DNA of 64,000 nt, from NCBI GenBank assembly GCA_017457105.1, contig JAFTIA010000086.1:1-64000 (forward strand), in the 5' to 3' direction. The notes under the pieces are model-generated. The model searched no databases. It had not been told where the DNA came from and was given only the letters and a program-made list of their open reading frames with translations. Shown piece by piece: positions 2,378 through 16,700 of this stretch. How positions within the stretch are numbered: position 1 is the stretch's first letter; each line of letters opens with the position of its first letter. The stretch comes from Lentisphaeria bacterium. Its GTDB lineage: Bacteria; Verrucomicrobiota; Lentisphaeria; Victivallales; Victivallaceae. The position numbers were made by a program, and so were the translations under genes.

Positions 2378-2986
2378 ATGCTTTTAAAGTACCCTACTAC
2401 ATCCAAAACATTGCTTGATAAAATTGTCTCCGGCGATGAGATCAGCTGGGATGAATTTTATCTGAAGTATGCCCCCATAGTGAAAGCTCTTGCCAAATTC
2501 AAAGGTTTGGATGCCAATGCCGCAGATGATGTCTGTCAACAGGTTATGCTTCAGTTTTTCAAGCAAAGCAAAACTTTTAAGTTCGATCCCAATATCGCCA
2601 AGTTCAGAACCTACTTTGGCAGGATCGTCAACAGCAAGATCTGCAGTTATTTCCGTAACGCCCAGGATTTGCCGACAGAGGATTTGGAATGGATTCCTGT
2701 TGACACAGAAACTGAAAATCTCTTTATGGATGAATGGCGCAAAGTCATTTTGCAGGAGGCCGAACAGAAGTTGAAACAGCGGGTTGCTCCTGAAACTTTT
2801 CAGGCTTATGAATTATACGCAGTTCAGAATCGTCCTGTAAAGAAAGTCGCAGAATATCTGGATTGTACTGAAAATCAGGTCTATCAGGCAAAGAAACGCT
2901 GCTTTGCTATGATGCGGGAGATCCTGCTTGAAATGAATGAAGCAGATCCGGATTTGCAGATGGAGTTATCTTGCTATGGAATTTAA
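2378..2986 (+). CDS. ECF-like RNA polymerase sigma factor
   Basis: The start is set at 2378, after AAGGAGA at 2362-2368; an upstream ATG at 2339 lacks such a site. The 202-residue protein has the two-domain ECF plan: region 2 at about residues 15-90 (SWDEFYLKYAPIVKALA, then DDVCQQVMLQFF and FRTYFGRIVNSKICSYFR) and region 4 at about 130-180 (VKKVAEYLDCTENQVYQAKKRC, a helix-turn-helix). It should direct RNA polymerase to a small set of promoters. Its last codons overlap the kinase gene by 11 nt, so the two are translationally coupled. In PVC bacteria, sigma factors encoded beside Ser/Thr kinases are plausible phospho-controlled pairs; that link is inferred here from overlap only. Confidence 0.85.
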   Translation: MLLKYPTTSKTLLDKIVSGDEISWDEFYLKYAPIVKALAKFKGLDANAADDVCQQVMLQFFKQSKTFKFDPNIAKFRTYFGRIVNSKICSYFRNAQDLPTEDLEWIPVDTETENLFMDEWRKVILQEAEQKLKQRVAPETFQAYELYAVQNRPVKKVAEYLDCTENQVYQAKKRCFAMMREILLEMNEADPDLQMELSCYGI

Positions 2987-4601
2987 AGCTGGAGATAAAC
3001 TCTGCAACTGTACGCTTATTCAGAAGAGTGGCGACGGTGCTTATGGCGAAGTCTGGCTTGCTGAAGATATTATCGGCAGCCGTGTTGCTGTGAAAATCCT
3101 GCACGGCAAGTATTCCGACCGGGAAGTTGCCGGATTGAAGCGTTATAAGGATTGTAATCACCCCAATTTGCTGAAAATCCGTTATGTGGAAATCAATGAA
3201 AAAGGTGTTTGCTACACCATGGATGCCGCAGATGACCTCAATGAAGGTCCGGGCGATTATCAGCCGGACACCCTTGCCAATCGTCTGAATAAATTTGGCA
3301 GATTGGAGGGGGAAGAAATTGCGGCGCTGGTGGAAGATCTTCTTTCCGGTCTTGAAGAATTGCACAAACACGGTCTGGTCCACCGTGATATCAAGCCTGA
3401 CAATATTTTGTGGGTCAATGGGCGAGCTACCCTTGCTGATGTGGGATTGATTGCCAATGACGGTGCAAATTCTCTGGCAGGCACGCCGGGATTTCTTTCT
3501 CCGCAGGTGCTGGAGGGCAATCCAGCCGAAGCCTGCGACGACTTTTACGCTTTGGGTAAAGTGATCTACTGTGCTATGACGGGACTTGACGCAAAGGAAT
3601 ATCCCAGTTTGCCTGCCGACATGACCATCAGCGTGGATGCCAATCTGAACCGTGCCGTGCGGGAAAGTTGTTCACATCCGGTCAGCTCTGCGGCAGAGTT
3701 CCGCAAACTGCTGGCGGAGAAAAAAACGGGTTCAGAAAAAAAGCATTTTCCGAGGAAAATGTTGTTGAAAATAATACTTGTTGTTTCAGGATTTGCCGGG
3801 GTGCTTTGCTGGATTTCGGCAAGTAAGCAGAACGCCGTTCAATCAGCCATGCAGGAAGCCGGAAAACATTCAGCGAACCAACCTGTTCAAATTGATTCGG
3901 CGGCAGAAAAACGCTTTGACGGCTCGCAGAATGCCGAAGCGGATTTTCAGAATAAACAACATTCCATTGAACAGAGGCTGAATAAAATGGAAAAAATGCA
4001 CATTGTTCAGCCGGTCCCAATTGATCCCGAAGATGAAGAAAAGCTGAAACTGCTGCAAAATGTGGACAAAGATGCCGCTGAAGATTTGCAAAAAACGATT
4101 ACAAGTTTGTTTGAGCGACTCGGTTTTTTCACTGATAATGGAAAACTGCTGCCGGTTTTGCTCAATTATGAACTTTTGACAACGATTCAGATGAGAGATT
4201 TGCTTTGGTTCAGCGATCGCAATCCGCGAATCGTTCCCAGTGCCGGAGTGCCGCCGCGGACAAGCAAAAATTTATCGGCAGTGGAACAGCAATTGTTTAG
4301 CATATTGATAAATTATATTCCCGAATTTGATGCAAAAGCCGTCAAGGCCCGTCAGCTTTTGTGGCGTAAAAAAACAGGAAATCCGCAACAGCTGCAAAAA
4401 GCAATGCTCACTTCTGATTTGATAATGCAAGCCGTGGCATTGGACGCTGTTATTCGGAGCGGGCTGAATTCAATTCTGCGAAACAACAAATTATCAGATA
4501 ATGACAAAAAAGAATTGGAATATTTGCTCAAACTTCGTTATTATCTGCTTACTCCAGAAATGTATAAATTGGAATACTTAAGCAAAAAATTAAAGCATTA
4601 G
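2976..4601 (+). CDS. Transmembrane serine/threonine protein kinase
   Basis: The ATG at 2976 lies inside the end of the sigma gene, about 10 nt after GGAG. The kinase domain covers residues 8-250: glycine-rich loop GDGAYGEV, beta-3 lysine K40 in VAVKIL, catalytic HRDIKPDN at 136-143. Two landmarks are altered: DFG is DVG (155-157) and the APE position reads SPQ (175-177). One membrane helix (about 262-282) is followed by a roughly 260-residue presumably extracytoplasmic region with two similar QPVQIDSAAEKR / QPVPIDPEDEEK repeats and a helical tail. All ATP-binding and catalytic residues appear present, so activity is likely. The coupled sigma factor is the obvious candidate substrate or partner. 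Confidence 0.9.
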   Translation: MEFKAGDKLCNCTLIQKSGDGAYGEVWLAEDIIGSRVAVKILHGKYSDREVAGLKRYKDCNHPNLLKIRYVEINEKGVCYTMDAADDLNEGPGDYQPDTLANRLNKFGRLEGEEIAALVEDLLSGLEELHKHGLVHRDIKPDNILWVNGRATLADVGLIANDGANSLAGTPGFLSPQVLEGNPAEACDDFYALGKVIYCAMTGLDAKEYPSLPADMTISVDANLNRAVRESCSHPVSSAAEFRKLLAEKKTGSEKKHFPRKMLLKIILVVSGFAGVLCWISASKQNAVQSAMQEAGKHSANQPVQIDSAAEKRFDGSQNAEADFQNKQHSIEQRLNKMEKMHIVQPVPIDPEDEEKLKLLQNVDKDAAEDLQKTITSLFERLGFFTDNGKLLPVLLNYELLTTIQMRDLLWFSDRNPRIVPSAGVPPRTSKNLSAVEQQLFSILINYIPEFDAKAVKARQLLWRKKTGNPQQLQKAMLTSDLIMQAVALDAVIRSGLNSILRNNKLSDNDKKELEYLLKLRYYLLTPEMYKLEYLSKKLKH

Positions 4602-4633: not shown

Positions 4634-4661
4634 TTGAGATTTGCACAATTTGTGCTATGTT
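4634..4661 (+). promoter_or_regulatory. Candidate sigma-70 promoter for the DUF4143 ATPase
   Basis: TTGAGA (4634-4639) and TATGTT (4656-4661) are separated by 16 nt and lie 28 nt before the ATG at 4690. The match is moderate and read by eye. Confidence 0.4.
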
Positions 4662-4689
4662 ACTCCTGAAACAATATGGAGGCACCAAG

Positions 4690-5847
4690 ATGATACCGCG
4701 AAAAATTCAAGCAGAACTGGCGCAGTTGGCGCAGGAATATAAGGTCGTTACCATTACCGGGCCCAGGCAGTCCGGTAAAACCACCTTGGCAAAGATGCAG
4801 TTCCCGGATTATGATTATGTCAATCTGGAAGATCCTGAAGTTCGCAGTTTGGCGGAAAAGGATGCCAGAGAATTTCTGCATCGGCATGCGGCACCGATCA
4901 TTATTGATGAAATCCAGAGATTGCCGATGCTGCTGAGCCACATTCAAGTGGAGTGCGACAAAAGCAATAGAAAAGGTCAATATATCTTGACCGGCAGTCA
5001 CCAACCCGCTTTAAAAGCAGGGATTTCCCAATCCCTGGCAGGTCGTACTGCCGTACTGCAGCTGTTGCCGCTTTCTATTGATGAGCTGTCGGGTGCCGGA
5101 ATAAAACTTGATCGGGATGAATATATTTTTAAAGGGTTCATGCCGCAGCTTTATGAAGAAAATATCGATATCACCCGCTTTTACCGCAATTATTACATGA
5201 CCTATGTTGAACGGGATGCAAGGCAGTTGGTGAATATCCGTAACTTTACTGCGTTTGAAACTTTTATCAAACTGCTGGCAGGTAGAGTCGGGCAGTTGGT
5301 CAATATGCAAAGCCTTGCCAATGATGTGGGTGTCTCTTCGACAACTATTTCAGAATGGCTCTCCATATTGGAGGCAAGCTACATTATTTTCCGGTTGCCG
5401 CCCTATTTTGAAAACTTCGGCAAACGCCTGACCAAATCGGCAAAAATATATTTTACTGAAGTCGGTCTGGCGGCATACTTGCTGGAGTTGGAAAATCCGG
5501 GTATGGTGACACGCGACCCGTTGATGGGGAATTTATTTGAAAATATGGTCATCGTTGAAGCATTGAAAGCCCGATACAATGCCGGAAAGGATGCCGGATT
5601 GTATTTCTTCCGTGATTCGCATGGTATGGAAATCGATCTGCTGCAATCTTCCGGACGGAAACTTTATCCGTTTGAAATCAAAGCGGCCAGGACATACAGT
5701 AGCGAGTTTGCCAAAAATATCAAGACATTCAGTAAACTCAATGATAAAACTGCGGATGGGTGTGTGATCTACTCTGGAGAGCAGGAACAGAAGGTAAAAG
5801 AGGTTGAACTGTTGAATTTTGTATCAACAGCAAAGAAAATTCATTAA
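4690..5847 (+). CDS. ATP-binding protein with DUF4143 domain
   Basis: The ATG at 4690 follows TGGAGG. The N-terminal AAA half has Walker A GPRQSGKTT (about residues 24-32) and Walker B IIIDEIQ; the tail contains the DUF4143 features YVERDARQLVNIRNF, a helix-turn-helix-like SLANDVGVSSTTISEWL and KIYFTEVGLAAYLL, then a PD-(D/E)xK-like ending (GMEIDLL...FEIKAA). At 385 residues it is standard for the family. These genes are frequent solitary passengers in bacterial and archaeal genomes and their role is undefined. It has its own promoter-like sequence, so I do not place it in the kinase operon. Confidence 0.88.
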   Translation: MIPRKIQAELAQLAQEYKVVTITGPRQSGKTTLAKMQFPDYDYVNLEDPEVRSLAEKDAREFLHRHAAPIIIDEIQRLPMLLSHIQVECDKSNRKGQYILTGSHQPALKAGISQSLAGRTAVLQLLPLSIDELSGAGIKLDRDEYIFKGFMPQLYEENIDITRFYRNYYMTYVERDARQLVNIRNFTAFETFIKLLAGRVGQLVNMQSLANDVGVSSTTISEWLSILEASYIIFRLPPYFENFGKRLTKSAKIYFTEVGLAAYLLELENPGMVTRDPLMGNLFENMVIVEALKARYNAGKDAGLYFFRDSHGMEIDLLQSSGRKLYPFEIKAARTYSSEFAKNIKTFSKLNDKTADGCVIYSGEQEQKVKEVELLNFVSTAKKIH

Positions 5848-6060
5848 AAATCAAAAAAAATCACAATCCGGCGACAAAAAATCAAATTGCCAGCGAATAG
5901 TCTTTTGGAAGTGTTGAAAACTTCGGTTGATTGACCATGCAGGCAGAGTGCGATTTGATTTTGTTGTGATGTGATGATATGTTATTTGCTGGAAAACGAA
6001 AGGAAACAGGAAAAACAACATCGGAACAAAGCTGTAAAATCAAATAAATCGTGTCTTTCA

Positions 6061-6214
6061 AGACAGGTTGCTCCGGAAAACGCCAAAAATAAAGAGCAAA
6101 ACCTGACGGCTTGAAAGGGGCGTCTGTATATATGTATATATAGACGTACTCTGCTTGCATGGGTTTTGCGGGTATTGGCGTACCTCCGGAGCTTGCGGCA
6201 GGGTGCGTCTTTTT
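6061..6214 (+). promoter_or_regulatory. Structured leader RNA copy 1, with alternative P1 and terminator pairings
   Basis: The gap 5848-6239 has no gene but carries this element. P1 pairs GCTCCGGA (6070-6077) and ACGCCAA (6080-6086) with TTGGCGT (6175-6181) and TCCGGAGC (6185-6192). Inside is a long hairpin at 6121-6146 and an apparently unpaired conserved stretch GTACTCTG-TTGCATGG. The 3' P1 strand GGCGTACC (6177-6184) can instead pair with GGTGCGTC (6202-6209) followed by five T, a terminator. The two folds exclude each other, which is riboswitch-like. It ends 25 nt before the ATG at 6240. A second copy lies at 6781-6938. I do not recognise it as a known class. Confidence 0.7.
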
Positions 6215-6239
6215 ATTTGGTATCGAAAGGAGAAGCGGG

Positions 6240-6647
6240 ATGAAAAGGAAGTATTGGTGGAGTGTTGCAGTTTTGCTGATGACTGTTTGTTCGGTGTATG
6301 CAGGAGCGCCGTCGCACCGTTATGTTGGCGGCAGACATCACCACGGGCGGGTTTACCGCAGCCATCATCATAGTCGGCACGGTTACGGGCATTATCGCAA
6401 TGACGGGGTACGGCTTGCCGCAGAGATCATCCGGGTGACAGCCGCAGGACTTGCCGTGCTGCCGATGGTTGTCCCCTCGCAGACAGTGTATGCAGTTCCT
6501 GCTGAAGAAAAGTTTTTTGAAGAGCCTGTAGAAAGAAAGCAATCTGTGGCAATTGTTCCCGGCAGCAATAGAGTAGTGATTAAAGAAAAGGAGATACGGA
6601 TCCGCCGTCCGCTACCGGCGGTGCGGCAAGTGATATATCAGTGGTAA
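6240..6647 (+). CDS. Secreted His/Tyr-rich small protein
   Basis: The ATG at 6240 follows GAAAGGAGAA. The 135-residue product has a signal peptide (MKRKYWWSVAVLLMTVCSVYA, likely cleavage after YAG/A). The mature N-terminus is rich in His, Arg, Gly and Tyr (RHHHG, SHHHSRHGYGHYR), then comes a short hydrophobic stretch and a charged tail (VVIKEKEIRIRRP). The histidine clusters could bind metal, but that is only a suggestion. It is the sole gene behind leader copy 1; no other homology is apparent. Confidence 0.6.
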   Translation: MKRKYWWSVAVLLMTVCSVYAGAPSHRYVGGRHHHGRVYRSHHHSRHGYGHYRNDGVRLAAEIIRVTAAGLAVLPMVVPSQTVYAVPAEEKFFEEPVERKQSVAIVPGSNRVVIKEKEIRIRRPLPAVRQVIYQW

Positions 6648-6780
6648 AAGTAAATACCATGCAAGCGGAGCTGTGATTTGATTTTTCTGGTGAGTGTGCT
6701 ACATTATCTTCCGAAGTTTAACTTGAAAGGAAGAAAAAGCAGACATAAACCTATAAAGAAAAAATTAAATCATTCGCAGT

Positions 6781-6938
6781 CTTCAAGCGGATCGGACTCA
6801 GGAAAACGCCAAAGTACAGAGAAAAAGATCGGATTGCTTGGAGTGTGCTTGTGTATATACAGGCGTACTCTGTTTGCATGGTCTTTTTCGGGTATTGGCG
6901 TACCTCCTGAGTCATGAAAATGGGGTACGTCTTTTTTT
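6781..6938 (+). promoter_or_regulatory. Structured leader RNA copy 2, with alternative P1 and terminator pairings
   Basis: This is a diverged copy of the element at 6061-6214, in the gene-free gap 6648-6964. P1 pairs GACTCAGGA (6795-6803) and ACGCCAA (6806-6812) with TTGGCGT (6895-6901) and TCCTGAGTC (6905-6913). Compared with copy 1 both strands changed together (CTCCGG/CCGGAG to CTCAGG/CCTGAG), which is compensatory evidence for the stem. The inner hairpin is 6841-6870. GGCGTACC (6897-6904) can alternatively pair with GGTACGTC (6924-6931) before seven T. It ends 26 nt before the ATG at 6965, the first gene of the AAA+/Asp-box operon. Confidence 0.72.
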
Positions 6939-6964: not shown

Positions 6965-7411
6965 ATGAATATCAATCTCGAGAACATGTCTGAAGAACAA
7001 GAGGCATTGCTCAACGAATTTCAGAATTCTGGCTTGAGCGCAGATGAATTTATCAAGAAATATTTTGCTGCCAAAGGTATTAAAAATCCAGATCAGGTTA
7101 TAGCTGAAATTGATTCTACGTTATCTGATATTGATTACCACTATTCTGAAATAAAAAAGGCTAAAGAAAAAGGTATTGATCGCAAATCGTATTTGCGCGG
7201 CGTATGCGATTCTGTTTTTGCCAATGCAGATGCTCAAAAAGCAGGTATCGCATTGGATATTGTTACCAAAGGAATCGAGGGAAAAGAACAGGATAGCAGC
7301 ACTTTGGAGTATGACGGTTTTGAAGCAGCAAGTATGATTTCTGATCTTGACACTGCGATTGTCAACAGTACTCTCGAAATGTTGAGTGAAGGAGATGCAA
7401 AAAATGAGTAA
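6965..7411 (+). CDS. Small acidic helical protein, first gene of the AAA+ operon
   Basis: The ATG at 6965 follows AGGAGAAAGAAA. The 148-residue product is acidic and predicted helical (EEQEALLNEFQNSGLSADEF, then SDIDYHYSEIKKAKEKGIDR) with no membrane helix and no motif I know. It ends 5 nt inside the next gene (ATGAGTAA overlap), so both are coupled. Because it heads an operon with an AAA+ ATPase, an adaptor or substrate role is possible but not shown. Confidence 0.6.
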   Translation: MNINLENMSEEQEALLNEFQNSGLSADEFIKKYFAAKGIKNPDQVIAEIDSTLSDIDYHYSEIKKAKEKGIDRKSYLRGVCDSVFANADAQKAGIALDIVTKGIEGKEQDSSTLEYDGFEAASMISDLDTAIVNSTLEMLSEGDAKNE

Positions 7412-7929: not shown

Positions 7930-9501
7930 ATGGACATTATCAGAACTCCAGATCAAATTCTCAGACAGTATATTACTGCAAAACGTCCCATTGTTTACAT
8001 TAACCATTTTGACTTTGAGGCAGTAGATAGGATCATACAAAATGCCGCAGGTGCTTTTGCGAAACGAGGTTTCAAGATTATCGAATTTACAGAGGCTGAC
8101 GGTTGGGTTGACTTTGAAACCAAGAACCCCAAGTCATCTTCTGATAATGACCTTGCCAACTTTTTGCAAAAGATAAATACAGATCAGTTTAAAAGTGAGA
8201 AAAAAGAACTGATTGTTGTCCTGAAGGAAGTACATGACAGTCTTCAGGATAAACGCGTTTATTCGGCGCTTCAAGCCATTGCCAGACGCAAAAGTATGGC
8301 AAACGATGTACCTGGCGATTATTATCGTGTAACTGTCATTATTGTTGACAGTCGTTTGATTATTCCAAGAGAAATTGAAAAGCTTATTACCATTGTTGAT
8401 ATACGGCCTCCCGCTCCGGAAGAAATTGAAAAAATTCTCCGTGATGTTGCAGAAGCTGATGATGGAGAAATTGAAGAATCTGCAATGAAAGAACTGGTTA
8501 TGGCATTGAACGGTCTTTCAGAGTTTGAAATAATACAAATCACCAAATTGGCTCTGGCAAACGATGGAGTCATCGACAAAGATGACTTGAATCTGATTTT
8601 TGAAGAAAAACGACAGGCAATTCAGAAATCTGGATTACTTGAACTTTATTATGTGCCTAAAGGTGGTTCTGAGCAGAAAAAAGATATTGGAGATTTTGAC
8701 AACCTGTTAGAGTATTTGGATGGGAAAGCCCGTATCTTCAAGGATCTTGCAGATGCTAAAGAACATGGCGTAGACAGTCCATCTGGGATCATGCTGGTTG
8801 GCATGCCGGGATGCGGTAAAAGTTTGAGTGTAAAAGCTGTTGCTGATAAGTTTGGTTGTCCTGCGTTGAAAATGGATATTGGCAGACTTTTGGGCAAGTA
8901 TGTCGGTGAAAGCGAAGAAAACTTGCGTCGTGCAATTCAAGTTGCAGAAGCAGCCTCTCCCTGCATTCTCTGGATTGATGAAATTGAAAAAGCATTTGCA
9001 GGTGCTTCGGGCGGAGAAGTTATGACCCGTATGTTCGGTTACTTCTTAACTTGGATGCAGGAAAAGACAGCTCCCGTGTATGTTCTTGCCACAGCCAATA
9101 ATATTTCGGGATTACCTCCGGAATTCACACGGCGTGGTCGTTTTGATGAAATTTTCAAGGTTGATCTTCCCAAAGGGAAGGGTATTGCTGATATTTTCAG
9201 AATCCATGTCAAAAAGCGCAGTGGTCAAGACTTGTCTGATGACATTGACTTTGATTATTTGGCAAAGAAATGCAATGGCAAACTGTATTCAGGAGCTGAC
9301 ATCGCCAGTATGGTCAAATCGGCTGCTGAAATCGCTTATCTGGATCCCCAAGGTCCCCGACAAATTGATCAGGATGACCTTGAGGATTTGATCAGAAGCA
9401 CCACATCCAGCTGTAAAGCCCAGGAAAACAACGAAAGTTACAGACGTATGGTGGATGCACTGGAAAAACTTGAATCCAAACCGGTTTCAAAAAATCAGTA
9501 A
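7930..9501 (+). CDS. Ycf46-like AAA+ ATPase
   Basis: The 523-residue protein has the two-part plan of the Ycf46 group. An N-terminal degenerate AAA-like region (about 1-235: [37 protein letters not shown]) is followed by an active AAA+ module: Walker A GMPGCGKS (291-298), Walker B ILWIDE (346-351), sensor-1 ATANN (about 387-391) and arginine fingers in FTRRGRFDE (399-407). It probably forms a hexameric remodelling or unfolding ring. The neighbouring small proteins (6965, 7404) and the two Asp-box proteins directly behind it (14 and 31-nt gaps) are the likely partners. Family call firm; substrate unknown. Confidence 0.88.
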
Positions 9502-9514
9502 GGAGAGGTTTATT

Positions 9515-11728
9515 ATGGCTCAATTCCCATTACTTATGAACGGTGTAGAAGTCTGCACACTCGAAGATTTGAAGAAAAACTTTAATCCTGAAGATCTTGT
9601 GGCATATCGCAAACGCTTTGCTGCTTGGCTCAAGGGCTGGGATTATGATGAAGAAGCTGTTGAAGTCAAGTCGCTTGATCCGGAATTGACTGACGAACAA
9701 TGGCTTGATGAAATATGTAAAATCGTAGATTGTGTAGATGTTTGGCAGGGAATGAAGCAGACATTTAATAACAAAAAGAAAAAAGCCCAAGCCGAAGAAT
9801 TTATAAATGAAGTAAAACAGTTGGACACACCAGAAAAACAAGAAAAACTTTTATCTGAAATATCAATAGAAATATCTCCAGAAAAACATACTCTTCCCAA
9901 AGGAGAAAAGCATTCTTTTTTTGCGACATCTTCAGCTTTTATTGTAAAAAGTGGTAATAAGTGCTTTTTAAGTAAAGATGGAAATGAGTACGATAATATA
10001 TCGTCTGATTTTGTGGCCTGCGAATGGATTTCATGCGTAAATAATCTCTTTGTAAAATGCACAAAAAAACAAATTCAATTTTCCAACAATGGCTTTGATT
10101 GGAAGCTTATTGAAATAAAACATATTCTTAATATCGTAAACCAAAGAGATATCATTATAGATAATATTTTTTATGCAAATAACAAATATATTGTTGTTTG
10201 GAGAAAAAAGAAAACAGATTATTATCGTTTTTCCATTAGCGATAATTTACAAGGAGGTTGGAAAGAGGCTGGGTACATCAAAGAGCCTGTTGAAAAGATT
10301 TCATTTTATAATGATTTTTATTTTGTTCAATCTGGGAATCAAACATTTTATTCAGATAATTTTGAAGATTGGGACGGTATATGGGATGATTATCGAAGAA
10401 TAGCTTCTTATCTTAAAAAAAATTTACCTCCCGGAGTTGAATTAAAAAAAATTGATGAACATTATTATCAACTTGTCGAAAATTATAATCAGTTAACAAT
10501 TCCTGTTTTAGAAAAAAACATTACCATATATTGGAATGGATCTGATATCTTTGTTAATAATACAGACAATTCCCAAAAAATTAACTTAGCTTCTGTTCCT
10601 TTCTCTATTCGTAATATATTTTATACAAACAGTAAACTTTGGATTACCAGCGAGAATGGAGAACTTTTTGCCTGCAATACAACTGTAATGGGAATACCTA
10701 TTGAAAAATTACAGGAAAAGCAAGAGGAAAAGAAGTTTGAGACTAAAAAGAAAAAGAAAATAGTTCCCACTCCGGAAAATATACAGGTAACGATCAATAA
10801 CAAAAAATCACCTTTCTGTGATCCTGTTACAGACGTATTTGTTTGTGAAAAAGGCGTAATGATAAATACGAAGTCTGATCAACTGTATCTCAGCAAGGAT
10901 GGCGAATACTTTACCCCAATTGTTCCTAATAACAGATCTTATCATTATTACAGAAAATTTTCTTACTTGAATGGATATTTTGTATTCCAAGATTCTGATA
11001 CGATTTATTTTTCCCAAGATGGCAGGGAATGGGATTCTTTTGAGTTGGATGATATTCTTCCGGCTGGATCAAAAGATTATGATTCCCCGAATTATAAAAG
11101 TTTGCCATCCATAGAAAATATTGTTTACAATAACAATCGCAAGTCTTTCACAATCTTTTATTCTTTTTACCGAGATGTTGGTGTCGGCAACGACATAACA
11201 AAAATTTATTGCATGAGTACAGCAAGTAAACTTGATGGTTCTTGGACTGACTGGGGCGAAATAAATTCATTCCCGTTTTTGGAGCCAAGAAAGTTCTATT
11301 GGACTCAAGGGAAATATTTTACCAGTGTGAGCTGGGGACAGGAAAAATATGGATATAATGCAAAATATGATAATGGAGTCTATTTTTCTGAAGACGGTTT
11401 AATATGGACACAGGCAGAAGAATCTGATAAAAACTGGCTTGATGGGTTGGAAGTTGAGGATTCAAACATATGGATGCACATAGACTATTGCAACTGTAAA
11501 GATGGACAAATGCGTTACTTCCTCGAAGAAGCAAAAATTATACCATGGGGAGAAATATATTTCTCTCACGGTGATGATACCATTAAAGCATGGAAAGAAG
11601 ATTTTGAACGTCAGCCGGTTTCCGAAGAGTGTGATTTTACAATTAAAACTGTAGTTTGCTTTAATGACAAGTTGTTGATTTTTGGTGAGAATAACGAATT
11701 TGCACTAGGAGAAATTCAGGTAAAATGA
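9515..11728 (+). CDS. Large Asp-box (BNR-like) repeat protein, module order A-B
   Basis: The ATG at 9515 follows AAGGAGAGG. Residues 1-70 form a head domain (LLMNGVEVCTLEDLKKNF, FAAWLKGWDYDEEAVEV) shared almost identically with the 11760 protein. A lysine-rich linker leads to module A (about 128-400) and, after a second linker KKKKKIVPTPEN, module B (about 430-737). Both carry Asp-box repeats S-x-D/N-G-x-x-W/F (FLSKDGNEY, YFSQDGREW, YFSEDGLIW), hallmarks of beta-propeller blades, and end with GENNEF/ENGELF closing strands. No signal peptide is seen, so it is cytosolic unless exported otherwise. Such propellers usually bind ligands or proteins; the operon suggests it works with the AAA+ ATPase. 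Confidence 0.75.
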   Translation: MAQFPLLMNGVEVCTLEDLKKNFNPEDLVAYRKRFAAWLKGWDYDEEAVEVKSLDPELTDEQWLDEICKIVDCVDVWQGMKQTFNNKKKKAQAEEFINEVKQLDTPEKQEKLLSEISIEISPEKHTLPKGEKHSFFATSSAFIVKSGNKCFLSKDGNEYDNISSDFVACEWISCVNNLFVKCTKKQIQFSNNGFDWKLIEIKHILNIVNQRDIIIDNIFYANNKYIVVWRKKKTDYYRFSISDNLQGGWKEAGYIKEPVEKISFYNDFYFVQSGNQTFYSDNFEDWDGIWDDYRRIASYLKKNLPPGVELKKIDEHYYQLVENYNQLTIPVLEKNITIYWNGSDIFVNNTDNSQKINLASVPFSIRNIFYTNSKLWITSENGELFACNTTVMGIPIEKLQEKQEEKKFETKKKKKIVPTPENIQVTINNKKSPFCDPVTDVFVCEKGVMINTKSDQLYLSKDGEYFTPIVPNNRSYHYYRKFSYLNGYFVFQDSDTIYFSQDGREWDSFELDDILPAGSKDYDSPNYKSLPSIENIVYNNNRKSFTIFYSFYRDVGVGNDITKIYCMSTASKLDGSWTDWGEINSFPFLEPRKFYWTQGKYFTSVSWGQEKYGYNAKYDNGVYFSEDGLIWTQAEESDKNWLDGLEVEDSNIWMHIDYCNCKDGQMRYFLEEAKIIPWGEIYFSHGDDTIKAWKEDFERQPVSEECDFTIKTVVCFNDKLLIFGENNEFALGEIQVK

Positions 11729-11759
11729 TTAAGAAGGGTATATGAAGGAGAAATAAACA

Positions 11760-13904
11760 ATGGCTCAATTCCCATTGCTAATGAACGGAACAGAAGTCTG
11801 TACGCTCGAAGACTTGAAGAAAAATTTTAATCCTGTGGAACTTGTTGTATATCGCAAACGCTTTGCTGCTTGGCTCAAGGGCTGGGATTATGATAATGAA
11901 GCTGTTGAAGTAAAGACTTTAGATCAAAATTTGACCGATGACCAATGGCTTAAAGCTATATGCGGAATAATCGGCATATCTGACCAGGAATTTGAAGCCG
12001 GTTTGAATAAAATTAATGAAATAAAAAAAGAAGAACAGGAAAAGGCTGAAAAAAAACTGGCAGAAGAACAACAACGCAAACTCAAAATTGAACAAAAAAA
12101 GAAATTTGATCCAACGCCGGAAAATATTAATATAACAAAAATTTGTTTTCAAAAATCGCCGTTTAGCGAGGCTGTTGAAACTATTTTTACCTGCGAAAAA
12201 GGCATATTGGTAAAAACAATATCTGACTTTCTTTACTTTAGCAGTGATGGGAAAAGTTTTTCTTCTGTTAAAGTGAATGCATGGTCAACCCATCATTATA
12301 CACATTTTTCCTGTTTGAACGGATATTTGCTTTTTCTAGATAGGAATGTTTTTTATTTTTCCGAAAACGGCAGTGATTGGCAATCCTTTAATTTTAAATC
12401 TGTTCTTCCTGCAGGAACAGAGATGCAAAATTTTACATATTTTACAATAGTTCCTTTTGATGGCATTGTTTATGATGATTGTCGGCAACACTTTGTTATT
12501 TTCTATCATTCCCGGGCTGGAAAACATTATCGTGCAACAGCAGAGTTTCTTTCTGGTCCTTGGCATGACCAGAAAGAAATCAGCTCTTTACCTCAATGCC
12601 AATATATAGATTTTGTTTTGGGGAAATATATTGGCGGATCTTATATGCACGATGGGTTGAGTATAGATTACTATTCTGATGATGGTCTGATTTGGAACCC
12701 AATAAATGAATCTGATCAAAAATGGTTAGATGATATTGAAGTAGAAGAAGGCAACAGGTTGATTCATGTTGATTATTGTGATCGCGAAGATGATACCAAA
12801 CGATTCCTTTTCAAATACTACCTGAATTCATGGCGAAAAAATGTTTTCTTTATCGCAGAAGGTATTTTCATTAAAGCATGGAGAAAAGGATATGAGAAAA
12901 AGAGTGTCTCTACTATATGTGATTTTCAATTAAAGAGAATTGCTTGTTTCAAAGATAAGTTATTGATTTTCGGCGAGAATAATGAATTTGCGACAAGTGA
13001 AATACATATGGGAGAAGCAAAAACTTCTGACTCTCAGGAAAGACTTTCGCCTGAAGTTCAAATCCAAATTTCATACGGCAATTACATAGATGTTCCAATA
13101 AAACTTGAAAAATATTCCATATTTTCAACAACATCTGCTTTTATTGTTAAAAGTGGATGCGATTGTTTTTTAAGTAAAGATGGAAAAGAATTTGAAAACA
13201 TTTCTTCGCTCTTTAATTGCTGTGAATGGATTTCTTGTATAAATGACTTTTTTGTTTTGTATGAAAAATCAAAGATTAAAATTTCGAAAGACGGCTTAAA
13301 ATGGAATATCGTAAATATAGAACTAATTACTAAACAAGCTTATCAATCTCATTTCTACTTATATGATATTTTTTATGTCGACAGTAAATATATTGCAATC
13401 TGGAGGAATGAAAACACAACTTGGTATTGTTTTTCAGTCAGTAATTCTTTTGACGGATATTGGGAAGAAATTGGAAGTGTTGAATCGTATACACCGATTG
13501 AAACAATTTCATATTATTCTGGAATATATTTTGCACAGTCTGAAAATGACACATTCTATTCAGAAGATTTAAAGAAATGGTCCAAAGTATGGGATTCTCC
13601 TCTCAATATAGTTTCTTCATTGCAACAACGTTTACCGCTTGGGGTGCAATTTAAAGAAAAGGGGGGACATTATACCATTTCAACTGCCGAAAATAAATTA
13701 ACTGTTTTTCTGTTTGGTCGAGAGTTTTCATTGTCTTGGGACAAAACACATATATTTACGAAAAATTATTCTGATCAAAGAAAGATTTATTTAGCTTCAA
13801 CTTCTTTTCCCATCCATAGTGTATTTTATTGTAATGAAACTCTGTGGATCTCTGGCAACAAAGGTGAACTCGCTTCTGGCAAGATAATATTCAAGGAGGA
13901 TTAA
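11760..13904 (+). CDS. Large Asp-box repeat protein, module order B-A (swapped paralogue)
   Basis: The ATG at 11760 follows GAAGGAGAAATAAACA. The head (1-70) is nearly identical to the 9515 protein, then a highly charged, probably coiled-coil linker (about 83-118, EEQEKAEKKLAEEQQRK) precedes module B (about 120-425, starting DPTPENINITK) and then module A (about 445-714, starting SIFSTTSAFIVKSG). The order of the two modules is therefore reversed relative to its neighbour. Asp-box motifs such as YFSSDGKSF, YFSENGSDW and YYSDDGLIW are visible. No signal peptide. Probably a ligand- or partner-binding double propeller; the linked pair may act together. Confidence 0.75.
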   Translation: MAQFPLLMNGTEVCTLEDLKKNFNPVELVVYRKRFAAWLKGWDYDNEAVEVKTLDQNLTDDQWLKAICGIIGISDQEFEAGLNKINEIKKEEQEKAEKKLAEEQQRKLKIEQKKKFDPTPENINITKICFQKSPFSEAVETIFTCEKGILVKTISDFLYFSSDGKSFSSVKVNAWSTHHYTHFSCLNGYLLFLDRNVFYFSENGSDWQSFNFKSVLPAGTEMQNFTYFTIVPFDGIVYDDCRQHFVIFYHSRAGKHYRATAEFLSGPWHDQKEISSLPQCQYIDFVLGKYIGGSYMHDGLSIDYYSDDGLIWNPINESDQKWLDDIEVEEGNRLIHVDYCDREDDTKRFLFKYYLNSWRKNVFFIAEGIFIKAWRKGYEKKSVSTICDFQLKRIACFKDKLLIFGENNEFATSEIHMGEAKTSDSQERLSPEVQIQISYGNYIDVPIKLEKYSIFSTTSAFIVKSGCDCFLSKDGKEFENISSLFNCCEWISCINDFFVLYEKSKIKISKDGLKWNIVNIELITKQAYQSHFYLYDIFYVDSKYIAIWRNENTTWYCFSVSNSFDGYWEEIGSVESYTPIETISYYSGIYFAQSENDTFYSEDLKKWSKVWDSPLNIVSSLQQRLPLGVQFKEKGGHYTISTAENKLTVFLFGREFSLSWDKTHIFTKNYSDQRKIYLASTSFPIHSVFYCNETLWISGNKGELASGKIIFKED

Positions 13905-14873: not shown

Positions 14874-15193
14874 CATAACTCTCTTTATCAGTTTTCATGC
14901 TGGATTGATCAACAATACAGCGGGAGCGGCGATGTCGCCGTTTTCAAAATGGGAAATCTGTCCCGGCGCGGAAAAATACAGATTTTTCCGCTGTACGCAT
15001 CCGCCCCTTGCGGCGGTTTGCACCGGTCATGCGGTTCGTCAGTACGGTCCAACGCTTTTCGTGTGTGAAACTACGCTTTGCGTAGCACAACACACTTCAA
15101 CGCATTGTCCGTTACTGACGATTCCGCAGCACCGGTACAACTCATCCGCAAAAGCTTTTGCGAAATGAGTTCTATGTGATAAAGAGAGTTATG
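14874..15193 (+). ncRNA. Retron msr-msd non-coding RNA
   Basis: The ends are a perfect 17-nt inverted repeat: a1 CATAACTCTCTTTATCA (14874-14890) and a2 at 15177-15193, which begins TGATAAAGAGAG, the a1/a2 pairing that defines retron RNAs. Between them are msr-type small hairpins (CGGCGA/TCGCCG near 14926-14941; GCGGAAAAA/TTTTTCCGC near 14968-14991; CCGCC/GCGG near 15001-15016), then a long interrupted msd hairpin at 15022-15136 with ACCGGT and TGCGG/CCGCA arms, CGTCAGTA/TACTGACG and a tip CTACGC-TTT-GCGTAG. A further hairpin lies at 15139-15171. The RT gene starts 15 nt downstream. The branching G is probably in the ATACAGCGGGAG region, not proven. At about 320 nt the RNA is on the long side. 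Confidence 0.88.
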
Positions 15194-15207
15194 TTTTTTT
15201 TGACAAT

Positions 15208-16152
15208 ATGACAGGTTTAGACATAAATTTTATGGAAACTTTGCCAATCATCCGTACCGTGGATGAATTGGCAGAGTTACTGTGTACGGATGCCAGACTG
15301 TTATATGCCATATCTAATGAAACTCCGGCTTGGTACAAATGCTTCCAGATTCCCAAAAATAACGGTTCTATGCGGAACATTGAGGCTCCTCGACCGTATT
15401 TGAAAACGATTCAACGCCGGATCCAAAAGAAAATATTGTCGTGTTTTACAGTGCACGATTGTGCAACCGCTTTTCTTCCCGGAAAAAACATTCGTCGCAA
15501 TGCTCTTTTTCATGTTAATAAATCTGTTGTGTTGAATTGTGATATAAAGAATTTTTTCCCTTCATTGAAAAGCCGTGCCGTTTTTGAATTTTTTCGGCGT
15601 AGAACCGGCTACGAGCCGGACGTTTGCATGATGCTTTCCAGATTATGTACATTGTATGGTCATCTGCCGCAGGGTGCTCCCTCCAGTCCGATGCTTTCCA
15701 ATCTTTTGATGTTTGAAATAGATGAAACGATTTGTCAATGGTGTGCAAAACATTATTTAAGTTATTCCAGATACGCTGATGATATGACTTTTTCCGGTGA
15801 AATTGATGTCCGGGTACAAGCAGATATTTTGCAAATGGTCAAGCGAAACTTAACGCTCTTGCATCTGAAACTCAATATTGCCAAAACCAAAGTCTATCGC
15901 AGCAACCGTCGTCAACTGGTTACCGGTCTGGTTGTTAATGAGTATGTCGGTGTTCCGCGAGAAAAAATCCGGGAATTCCGGACATGGTTGTATTACACGG
16001 AATTAGATATTATAAACGAAAATTTTTATTATGATTCGGATGAAATTGAATCCCGCTTGGGCTTGTTAAACTTTTATTACAGTATAAACTGCAATGAAAA
16101 TCTTTTGAGATGGCGTGATCGATTGTTGGAAATTAGAAGAATGTATTCCTGA
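15208..16152 (+). CDS. Retron-type reverse transcriptase
   Basis: A 314-residue RT with retron-specific motifs: motif X NAxxH as NALFH (98-102) and motif Y VTG in LVTGLVVN (238-240). General RT motifs are also present: metal-binding D112 in NCDIKNFFPSL, QGAPSSPMLSN (155-165) and YADD (189-192). It is fused to no other domain. It should reverse-transcribe the RNA at 14874-15193 into branched msDNA. No Shine-Dalgarno is clear before 15208; METLPIIRT at 15232 is an alternative start. Retrons act in anti-phage defence with an effector, but no canonical effector (deoxyribosyltransferase-like, HNH/Septu, TOPRIM, 2-TM) is recognisable nearby; the small genes upstream or the 16269-17559 genes are candidates. 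Confidence 0.93.
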   Translation: MTGLDINFMETLPIIRTVDELAELLCTDARLLYAISNETPAWYKCFQIPKNNGSMRNIEAPRPYLKTIQRRIQKKILSCFTVHDCATAFLPGKNIRRNALFHVNKSVVLNCDIKNFFPSLKSRAVFEFFRRRTGYEPDVCMMLSRLCTLYGHLPQGAPSSPMLSNLLMFEIDETICQWCAKHYLSYSRYADDMTFSGEIDVRVQADILQMVKRNLTLLHLKLNIAKTKVYRSNRRQLVTGLVVNEYVGVPREKIREFRTWLYYTELDIINENFYYDSDEIESRLGLLNFYYSINCNENLLRWRDRLLEIRRMYS

Positions 16153-16179
16153 TTTTTCAAATTCAGTGACAATTTTTCA

Positions 16180-16243
16180 AACCTTCTGCGAATAATAGGA
16201 TAGACAACCTTAAATTCGCAGGAGGTTTTTCTTTGCCTCCTGC
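16180..16243 (+). terminator. Terminator/attenuator with a competing hairpin
   Basis: AACCTTCTGCGAAT (16180-16193) pairs with ATTCGCAGGAGGTT (16214-16227) and is followed by TTT C, closing the retron unit. The same 3' arm GCAGGAGG (16218-16225) can also pair with CCTCCTGC (16236-16243). It ends 25 nt before the ATG at 16269, so it may regulate readthrough into that gene. Confidence 0.7.
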
Positions 16244-16268: not shown

Positions 16269-16700
16269 ATGAAAAAAGACATCACAGTGCAGGAGCTGAT
16301 CAATCAGCTGAACCAAATCGAAAACAAAAATATTCCGGTGGATATTGTTCTGCTGGATGACGGTATCGGGCCCCTGAAAAAAGGAGAGCATACCCGCTTT
16401 GAAAAATTGGTTTTCAATACTTCCAAACCCAGCGGAAAAGTCGTTTCTGTGTCGCTGGGCGTTGATGGTATGGAAAAATATGTCAGAGAAGAATTTGATG
16501 ATTTTGTGTCCGTTGCAGATAAGCCGGAATGTCAGGCGGAAATCGAAGAATGGACGCAACTCTTTCGCGGCGACCGGCAATTCGCCATTGATATGCTGGA
16601 CTATCACAACCGCTGTGCCTGGTCCCGTGCTTGTGCCAATGCCAAGCCTGAAGATTTTCTCGAACCCGATGAAAAAATGCCAAATAAGGAGGTTAAATAA
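16269..16700 (+). CDS. Hypothetical protein (143 aa)
   Basis: The ATG at 16269 follows AGAAAGGGA. The N-terminal third (MKKDITVQELINQLNQIENK, then VDIVLLDDGIGPL) suggests a small alpha/beta fold; the C-terminus has a helical ECQAEIEEWTQLF and HNRCAWSRACANA. I recognise no family. It ends 1 nt before the 16702 gene and an AAGGAGG within its tail serves that gene, so the two are an operon. No signal peptide or membrane helix. Confidence 0.55.
   Translation: MKKDITVQELINQLNQIENKNIPVDIVLLDDGIGPLKKGEHTRFEKLVFNTSKPSGKVVSVSLGVDGMEKYVREEFDDFVSVADKPECQAEIEEWTQLFRGDRQFAIDMLDYHNRCAWSRACANAKPEDFLEPDEKMPNKEVK

Follow-up and report, generated by a model that had tools for sequence, protein, structure and literature searches.

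A candidate transcription attenuator RNA class with two covarying folds, linked to an ECF-type sigma factor and Ser/Thr kinase module in Lentisphaeria

The window analysed here is a stretch of 64,000 nucleotides from a Lentisphaeria bacterium (assembly GCA_017457105.1, contig JAFTIA010000086.1, positions 1 to 64,000). It encodes a sigma-70 region 2 protein and, beside it, a Ser/Thr kinase; an ATPase gene follows, and then two genes that are each preceded by a leader RNA:

2339-2986, + strand: ECF-type sigma factor (PF04542, 1.6e-8; TIGR02937, 60.1 bits, above the cut-off), with the RNA as a neighbour in relatives
2937-4601, + strand: Ser/Thr protein kinase (PF00069, 8.5e-24)
4657-5847, + strand: AAA_14/DUF4143 ATPase, between the kinase and leader 1 (PF13635, 9.4e-48)
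6240-6647, + strand: gene under leader 1, a small His-rich protein with a signal-like N-terminus and no family match
6965-7411, + strand: gene under leader 2, a recurrent unnamed family found in 7 leader loci among those examined

A sequence-only reading of this region had proposed a structured leader RNA in two copies, and this holds: the copies, at 6055-6214 and 6781-6938, belong to a family that a covariance model detects in about half the genomes of the order. The U-runs of both end 25-35 nt 5' of the start codons (ATG 6240 for copy 1 and ATG 6965 for copy 2).

Further along, the operon after leader 2 includes an AAA ATPase (7930-9501) weakly similar to the anti-phage ATPase IetA. Two tandem paralogues (9515-13904) have in common an N-terminal module, FPLLMNGxEVCTLEDLKKNFNP, and a gene behind the leader of another locus (L122) encodes a similar module. 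A type III-A-like retron occupies 14874-16152; its reverse transcriptase (15208-16152) is preceded by a perfect 17-nt inverted repeat (14874-14890 / 15177-15193). Such inverted repeats are typical of the ends of retron ncRNAs.

Judged by sequence and covariation, the two leaders belong to a single structured RNA class that had not been listed before and is absent from Rfam. At gathering scores, neither leader has a match in Rfam 15, the sole match in the window being a tRNA, which bears out the earlier suggestion that the leaders fall outside the known classes. At a relaxed threshold, Rfam yields only chance matches for the leaders (e.g., Pedo-repair at 15.4 bits, with a gathering score of 150), an Rfam scan of ten members from other classes of the phylum gave no match, and the T-box covariance model does not match the leaders, in which no T-box sequence is seen. 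No description of this leader RNA was found in a literature search whose coverage stops short of subscription papers and preprints, and the RNA is absent from all the viral contigs, phages and plasmids that were searched.

The source genome assembly holds these two copies only; BLAST detects relatives of copy 2 in other genera. An exact-pattern scan of public genomes returned 43 loci, nearly all in Lentisphaerae/Victivallaceae MAGs and the cultured Lentisphaerota isolate zth2 (CP071032; PMC11361711), in which the number of copies per genome reaches its maximum of 6. The wider search for relatives, which the sequence-only reading had set as a check, recovered the leader RNA in 69 of the 137 genomes of the order (Victivallales-type Lentisphaerae) and, with a per-genome cut-off of E <= 1e-4, additional members elsewhere in the phylum, in other classes; covariation grew markedly as copies were added. 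The covariance-model set used for the sigma linkage counts below comprises 145 places in the order at E<=2.1e-4. A match in a Rickettsiaceae MAG (L119) was excluded as lacking the structure and resembling coding sequence, and a motif search with GTACTCTGNNTGCATGG, allowing 2 mismatches, gave matches that were almost entirely noise. The leaders at five loci (L084, L085, L086, L093 and L094) are near-identical across genomes of two families, which suggests recent horizontal transfer of the leader.

The two copies have the same order of elements. P1 of copy 1 pairs GCTCCGGA at 6070-6077 with TCCGGAGC at 6185-6192, and P1 of copy 2 pairs GACTCAGGA at 6795-6803 with TCCTGAGTC at 6905-6913. The parts of copy 1, with swap-test z values for the order set and the other classes, respectively, are:

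6055-6062, + strand: H1a 5' strand (partner 6110-6117; z -14.1 and -5.9)
6064-6073, + strand: H1b 5' strand (partner 6094-6105; excludes P1 and P2; z -14.5 and -6.7)
6070-6077, + strand: P1 5' strand (partner 6185-6192; covariation)
6081-6086, + strand: P1b 5' strand, CGCCAA (partner 6175-6180; two-sided changes at every pair)
6096-6103, + strand: P2 5' strand (partner 6162-6169; covariation)
6110-6117, + strand: H1a 3' strand (swap test)
6118-6153, + strand: P3 hairpin (z -14.1 and -6.4)
6143-6154, + strand: 5' strand of terminator T, which is also the P3 3' strand (partner 6198-6209; z -15.6 and -7.9; predicted fold)
6162-6169, + strand: P2 3' strand (covariation)
6171-6184, + strand: hairpin H3, GGTA[TTGGCG]TACC, whose loop is the P1b 3' strand (6175-6180)
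6185-6192, + strand: P1 3' strand (covariation)
6198-6214, + strand: T 3' strand and U-run

Those of copy 2 are:

6781-6788, + strand: H1a 5' strand (partner 6836-6843; swap test and predicted fold)
6795-6803, + strand: P1 5' strand (partner 6905-6913; covariation)
6807-6812, + strand: P1b 5' strand (partner 6895-6900; covariation)
6821-6830, + strand: P2 5' strand (partner 6880-6889; covariation and predicted fold)
6840-6872, + strand: P3 hairpin, of which 6862-6870 doubles as the T 5' strand
6880-6889, + strand: P2 3' strand (covariation and predicted fold)
6891-6904, + strand: hairpin H3 (U-A and C-G alternate in the family)
6905-6913, + strand: P1 3' strand (covariation)
6922-6938, + strand: T 3' strand and U-run (swap test and predicted fold)

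The P1 changes that had been read as compensatory from the two copies are not due to chance: the 21 modelled pairs in P1, P1b and P2 each show changes on both sides among 63 divergent members. In alignments that had been fitted to the structure of the model, 94.6% of the P1/P1b/P2 cells are paired in these 63 members, compared to 63.6% after shuffling and 29-46% in slid controls, and 20 members from other classes repeat this covariation independently (97.5% vs 64.7%). The swap tests set a strand against partners from other sequences; for P1, P2, H1 and T, they use unaligned sequences and are free of that fitting. They give z of -12.8 for P1 and -11.3 for P2, and the values for P1, P2, P3, H1a, H1b and T range from about -6 to -16, with matched controls near zero throughout. 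Four helices beyond P1, P1b and P2 co-vary as well, namely H1a/H1b, P3, H3 and the terminator T. The P1b block CGCCAA/UUGGCG is replaced as a whole in relatives, by CACCAC/GUGGUG, CUGGUA/UACCAG or UUACCA/UGGUAA, and H3, with the consensus GGYA..URCC, alternates between U-A (33 of the 63 members) and C-G (25 of 63). A GC-rich hairpin with a U-run would by itself terminate transcription, and one could accordingly picture ordinary intrinsic terminators that were recently duplicated, with no regulatory switch; this is highly improbable, since a bare terminator would not call for the covariation that P1, P2, P1b and H1 show from class to class within the phylum.

Because H1b competes with P1 and P2, and T competes with P3, the helices fall into two mutually exclusive folds. 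As drawn from the covariation, fold A has a junction of P1b/H3 and P2 that P1 closes, with P3 on top, and fold B consists of the long hairpin T and a hairpin at the 5' end, H1, that uses up the 5' strands of both P1 and P2. We infer that a single drawing, a junction with a pseudoknot, can accommodate P1, P2, P1b and H3. The stretch GTACTCTG-TTGCATGG, previously described as conserved and unpaired, is not single-stranded in either fold as far as GTACTCTG is concerned, which is the P3 3' strand in one and the T 5' strand in the other; 5' of the promoter, moreover, lies a partial reverse complement of the stretch (5935-5952 and 6657-6670). A competing terminator was likewise predicted, and it exists in both copies, but the proposed arm GGCGTACC is not its main partner: T is formed mainly by the P3 3' strand (GACGTACTCTGC/GGCGTACTC) and the strand directly 5' of the U-run (z -15.6 in the order set, -7.9 in the other classes), whereas pairing of the H3/GGCGTACC region with the terminator strand is weak (z -4.4 and -1.1). 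The second state also needs the 5' hairpin H1, which is absent from the sequence-only reading.

A U-run is present at the expected site in 61 of 63 members and in 19 of 20 from the other classes, the corresponding numbers in an interval further on being 19 and 3. The leaders combine a hairpin, a U-run and a competing helix, as attenuators do, and at nearly all loci a gene on the same strand starts shortly 3' of the U-run, as is the case for cis-acting leaders. By its anatomy, the class appears to be an attenuator, riboswitch-like; with T and then the U-run lying just 5' of a same-strand gene, fold B looks terminated and fold A looks like the read-through state. Fold B would end in an intrinsic terminator that stops transcription 5' of the gene, fold A would tie up the P3 3' strand and let RNA polymerase read through, and the two exclusive, covarying helix sets would thereby decide the expression of the gene, with some trigger shifting the balance.

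The predicted energies of the two folds are about equal in copy 1 (-65.4 vs -66.1 kcal/mol) and differ in copy 2 (-64.5 kcal/mol for fold A vs -53.4 for fold B); across 53 members, folded without pseudoknots, the median advantage of fold A is 10 kcal/mol. In equilibrium folding, T is absent in most short transcripts and appears once fold A is excluded, forming unaided in copy 1. Since fold A is predicted to be stable in most members, termination would require kinetic control or a trigger, and a trigger that promotes fold B is as conceivable as the ON switch by P1 stabilisation that the sequence-only reading had predicted. Either a ligand that stabilises fold A or a factor that promotes fold B could serve.

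If the trigger were a ligand, the leaders would represent a new class of small-molecule riboswitches, in which the ligand, perhaps a signalling nucleotide or ion common to many functions, recognises the junction and P1b/H3 pseudoknot of fold A and thereby controls terminator formation. The two covarying exclusive folds with a terminator, the unpaired AAA, A and GG..CC conserved around the covarying core, and the presence of up to 6 copies per genome before unrelated genes, as with second-messenger riboswitches, are all consistent with this scheme. However, fold A is predicted to be stable without a ligand, few unpaired bases are invariant, given that P1b covaries, and the genes 3' of the leaders are varied (zinc-ribbon, DUF1232, DUF3944-like, patatin, dynamin-like, EcoRI-type methylase, GmrSD-like and many unnamed). 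No shared metabolic theme that would point to a ligand was found among these genes. A riboswitch in this sense is quite possible, if short of probable.

The leader is linked to the ECF-type sigma/kinase module, a linkage newly found here. Within the order, the RNA lies <=5 kb from 18 of the 21 closest homologues of the sigma factor and from 38 of the 54 close ones, and it is 3' of the sigma gene on the same strand in 39 of 50 linked cases. Such a tightly linked module could supply the regulator of an antitermination RNA, in which fold A or H1 is recognised by an RNA-binding protein or by the polymerase itself, with no small ligand involved; the diversity of the genes downstream and the low sequence conservation outside the helices would suit this mechanism. 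We nevertheless hold it to be rather unlikely, considering that 94 of the 145 RNA matches, about two thirds, have no such sigma within 5 kb, that the module is mostly missing beside the phylum-level copies, and that no RNA-binding protein is consistently adjacent.

Upstream of each leader lie a promoter and an element, U, that is complementary to the 3' half of the leader:

5873-5899, + strand: promoter-like motif GACAA-N-GCGAATA, seen at kinase-linked loci
5935-5952, + strand: element U of copy 1 (CCATGCAGGCAGAGTGCG), pairing in full (2 G-U) with leader positions 6146-6163 (family z -7.9)
5955-5983, + strand: sigma-70-type promoter of copy 1 (TTGATT 5955-5960, TATGTT 5978-5983, spacing 17)
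6657-6670, + strand: element U of copy 2 (CCATGCAAGCGGAG)
6678-6705, + strand: sigma-70-type promoter of copy 2 (TTGATT 6678-6683, TACATT 6700-6705, spacing 16)

The GACAA-N-GCGAATA motif occurs 3 times in the 2.68 Mb genome; two of the matches lie in this cluster and the third in a repeat-rich stretch. A motif of this kind accompanies 12 of 19 kinase-linked leaders and 0 of 23 unlinked ones (p 5e-6), preceding U in many loci, and is probably read by the sigma factor of the cluster. The second copy in the cluster, GACAA-N15-GCGAATA at 16168-16194, lies 5' of genes at 16269 and 16702 and has no leader RNA. Between promoter and leader, an SD-like GAAAGG (5999-6004 and relatives) is conserved with no consistent start codon after it, and inspection by eye found no conserved reading frame 3' of it.

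U occurs in 28 of the 43 loci, 5' of the sigma-70-type promoter and complementary to the P3 3' strand (under a stricter shuffle threshold it passes in 20 of 42, with copy 1 just below), and in some lineages the complementarity reaches as far as P1. In most loci, the sigma-70-type promoter is located between U and the leader, and U lies outside the sigma-70 transcript. Among relatives, U pairs better with its own leader than with swapped ones (-49.8 vs -40.4, z -7.9); it is modestly associated with the kinase module (p 0.03), and many loci are devoid of U. When U is added in folding, the terminator strand is sequestered, and P1 and P2 are lost in about ten loci including copy 1, shuffled U having no effect; a short U (14-18 bp) leaves the equilibrium fold unchanged in most loci. 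In one locus (L069), about 174-216 nt 5' of CGCCAA, the 3' half of the leader recurs as a long inverted copy that includes GGTACGCCAATACC.

The promoter does sit between two inverted sequences, and gut bacteria are known to have invertible promoters. The complementarity could thus be a feature of the DNA, with U and the leader segment being the ends of an invertible promoter or operator half-sites flanking the sigma-70 promoter. Such an origin is improbable: most loci have imperfect repeats with gaps, unlike the near-perfect repeats of an invertible promoter, inversion would split the leader in two, and no copy in the inverted orientation was seen. The changes, moreover, lean toward those that tolerate G-U (G-U vs A-C mismatches 52:16, with ~45:23 expected), which weakly favours pairing at the RNA level.

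The likely explanation for the locus as a whole is a cis-acting transcription attenuator that alternates between folds A and B, with a balance shifted by some trigger and with a U-dependent bypass for transcripts started by the sigma factor. Where a sigma/kinase module precedes the leader, its sigma would use a second promoter further upstream and so yield a longer RNA that includes U; U would pair with the leader 3' half, T could not form, and such transcripts would bypass the switch. Under this attenuator model, we tentatively suggest that one leader may serve two inputs, acting as a switch for transcripts from the housekeeping promoter and being bypassed through U in those from the kinase-controlled sigma, such that the choice of promoter would decide whether the RNA switch is obeyed. 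The bypass, if true, would be a way to decide which transcripts an RNA switch controls. The leaders add a class of structured regulatory RNA that is present in roughly half of one order's genomes and extends to other classes of the phylum, which consists of poorly studied gut and environmental bacteria, and they offer well over 100 natural variants for structural work. As the RNA is tied to sigma-kinase modules and accessory genes, its trigger could reveal what these bacteria sense.

Parts of this arrangement resemble known systems. Invertible promoters are similarly flanked by inverted sequences, whereas the repeats here are imperfect, gapped and run into covarying RNA structure. T-box leaders also contain alternative terminator and antiterminator helices, but the present leader has no T-box match, and the loop of its H3 finds a pairing partner, CGCCAA, in cis. 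Orphan riboswitch candidates with expression-platform terminators share with it the 5' leader position, the conserved multi-helix core, the competing antiterminated and terminated folds, and the several copies per genome; the leader differs from them in having neither an Rfam match nor a common metabolic theme and in its location beside a sigma/kinase module. ECF sigma factors activated by an adjacent Hanks-type kinase are known from the ECF43 type, e.g., EcfK/PknS (PMC13147305), in which a sigma-70 region 2/4 protein is directly followed by a Ser/Thr kinase gene; the likeness is one of gene arrangement, in a different lineage, and the locus described here includes, in addition, a structured leader RNA.
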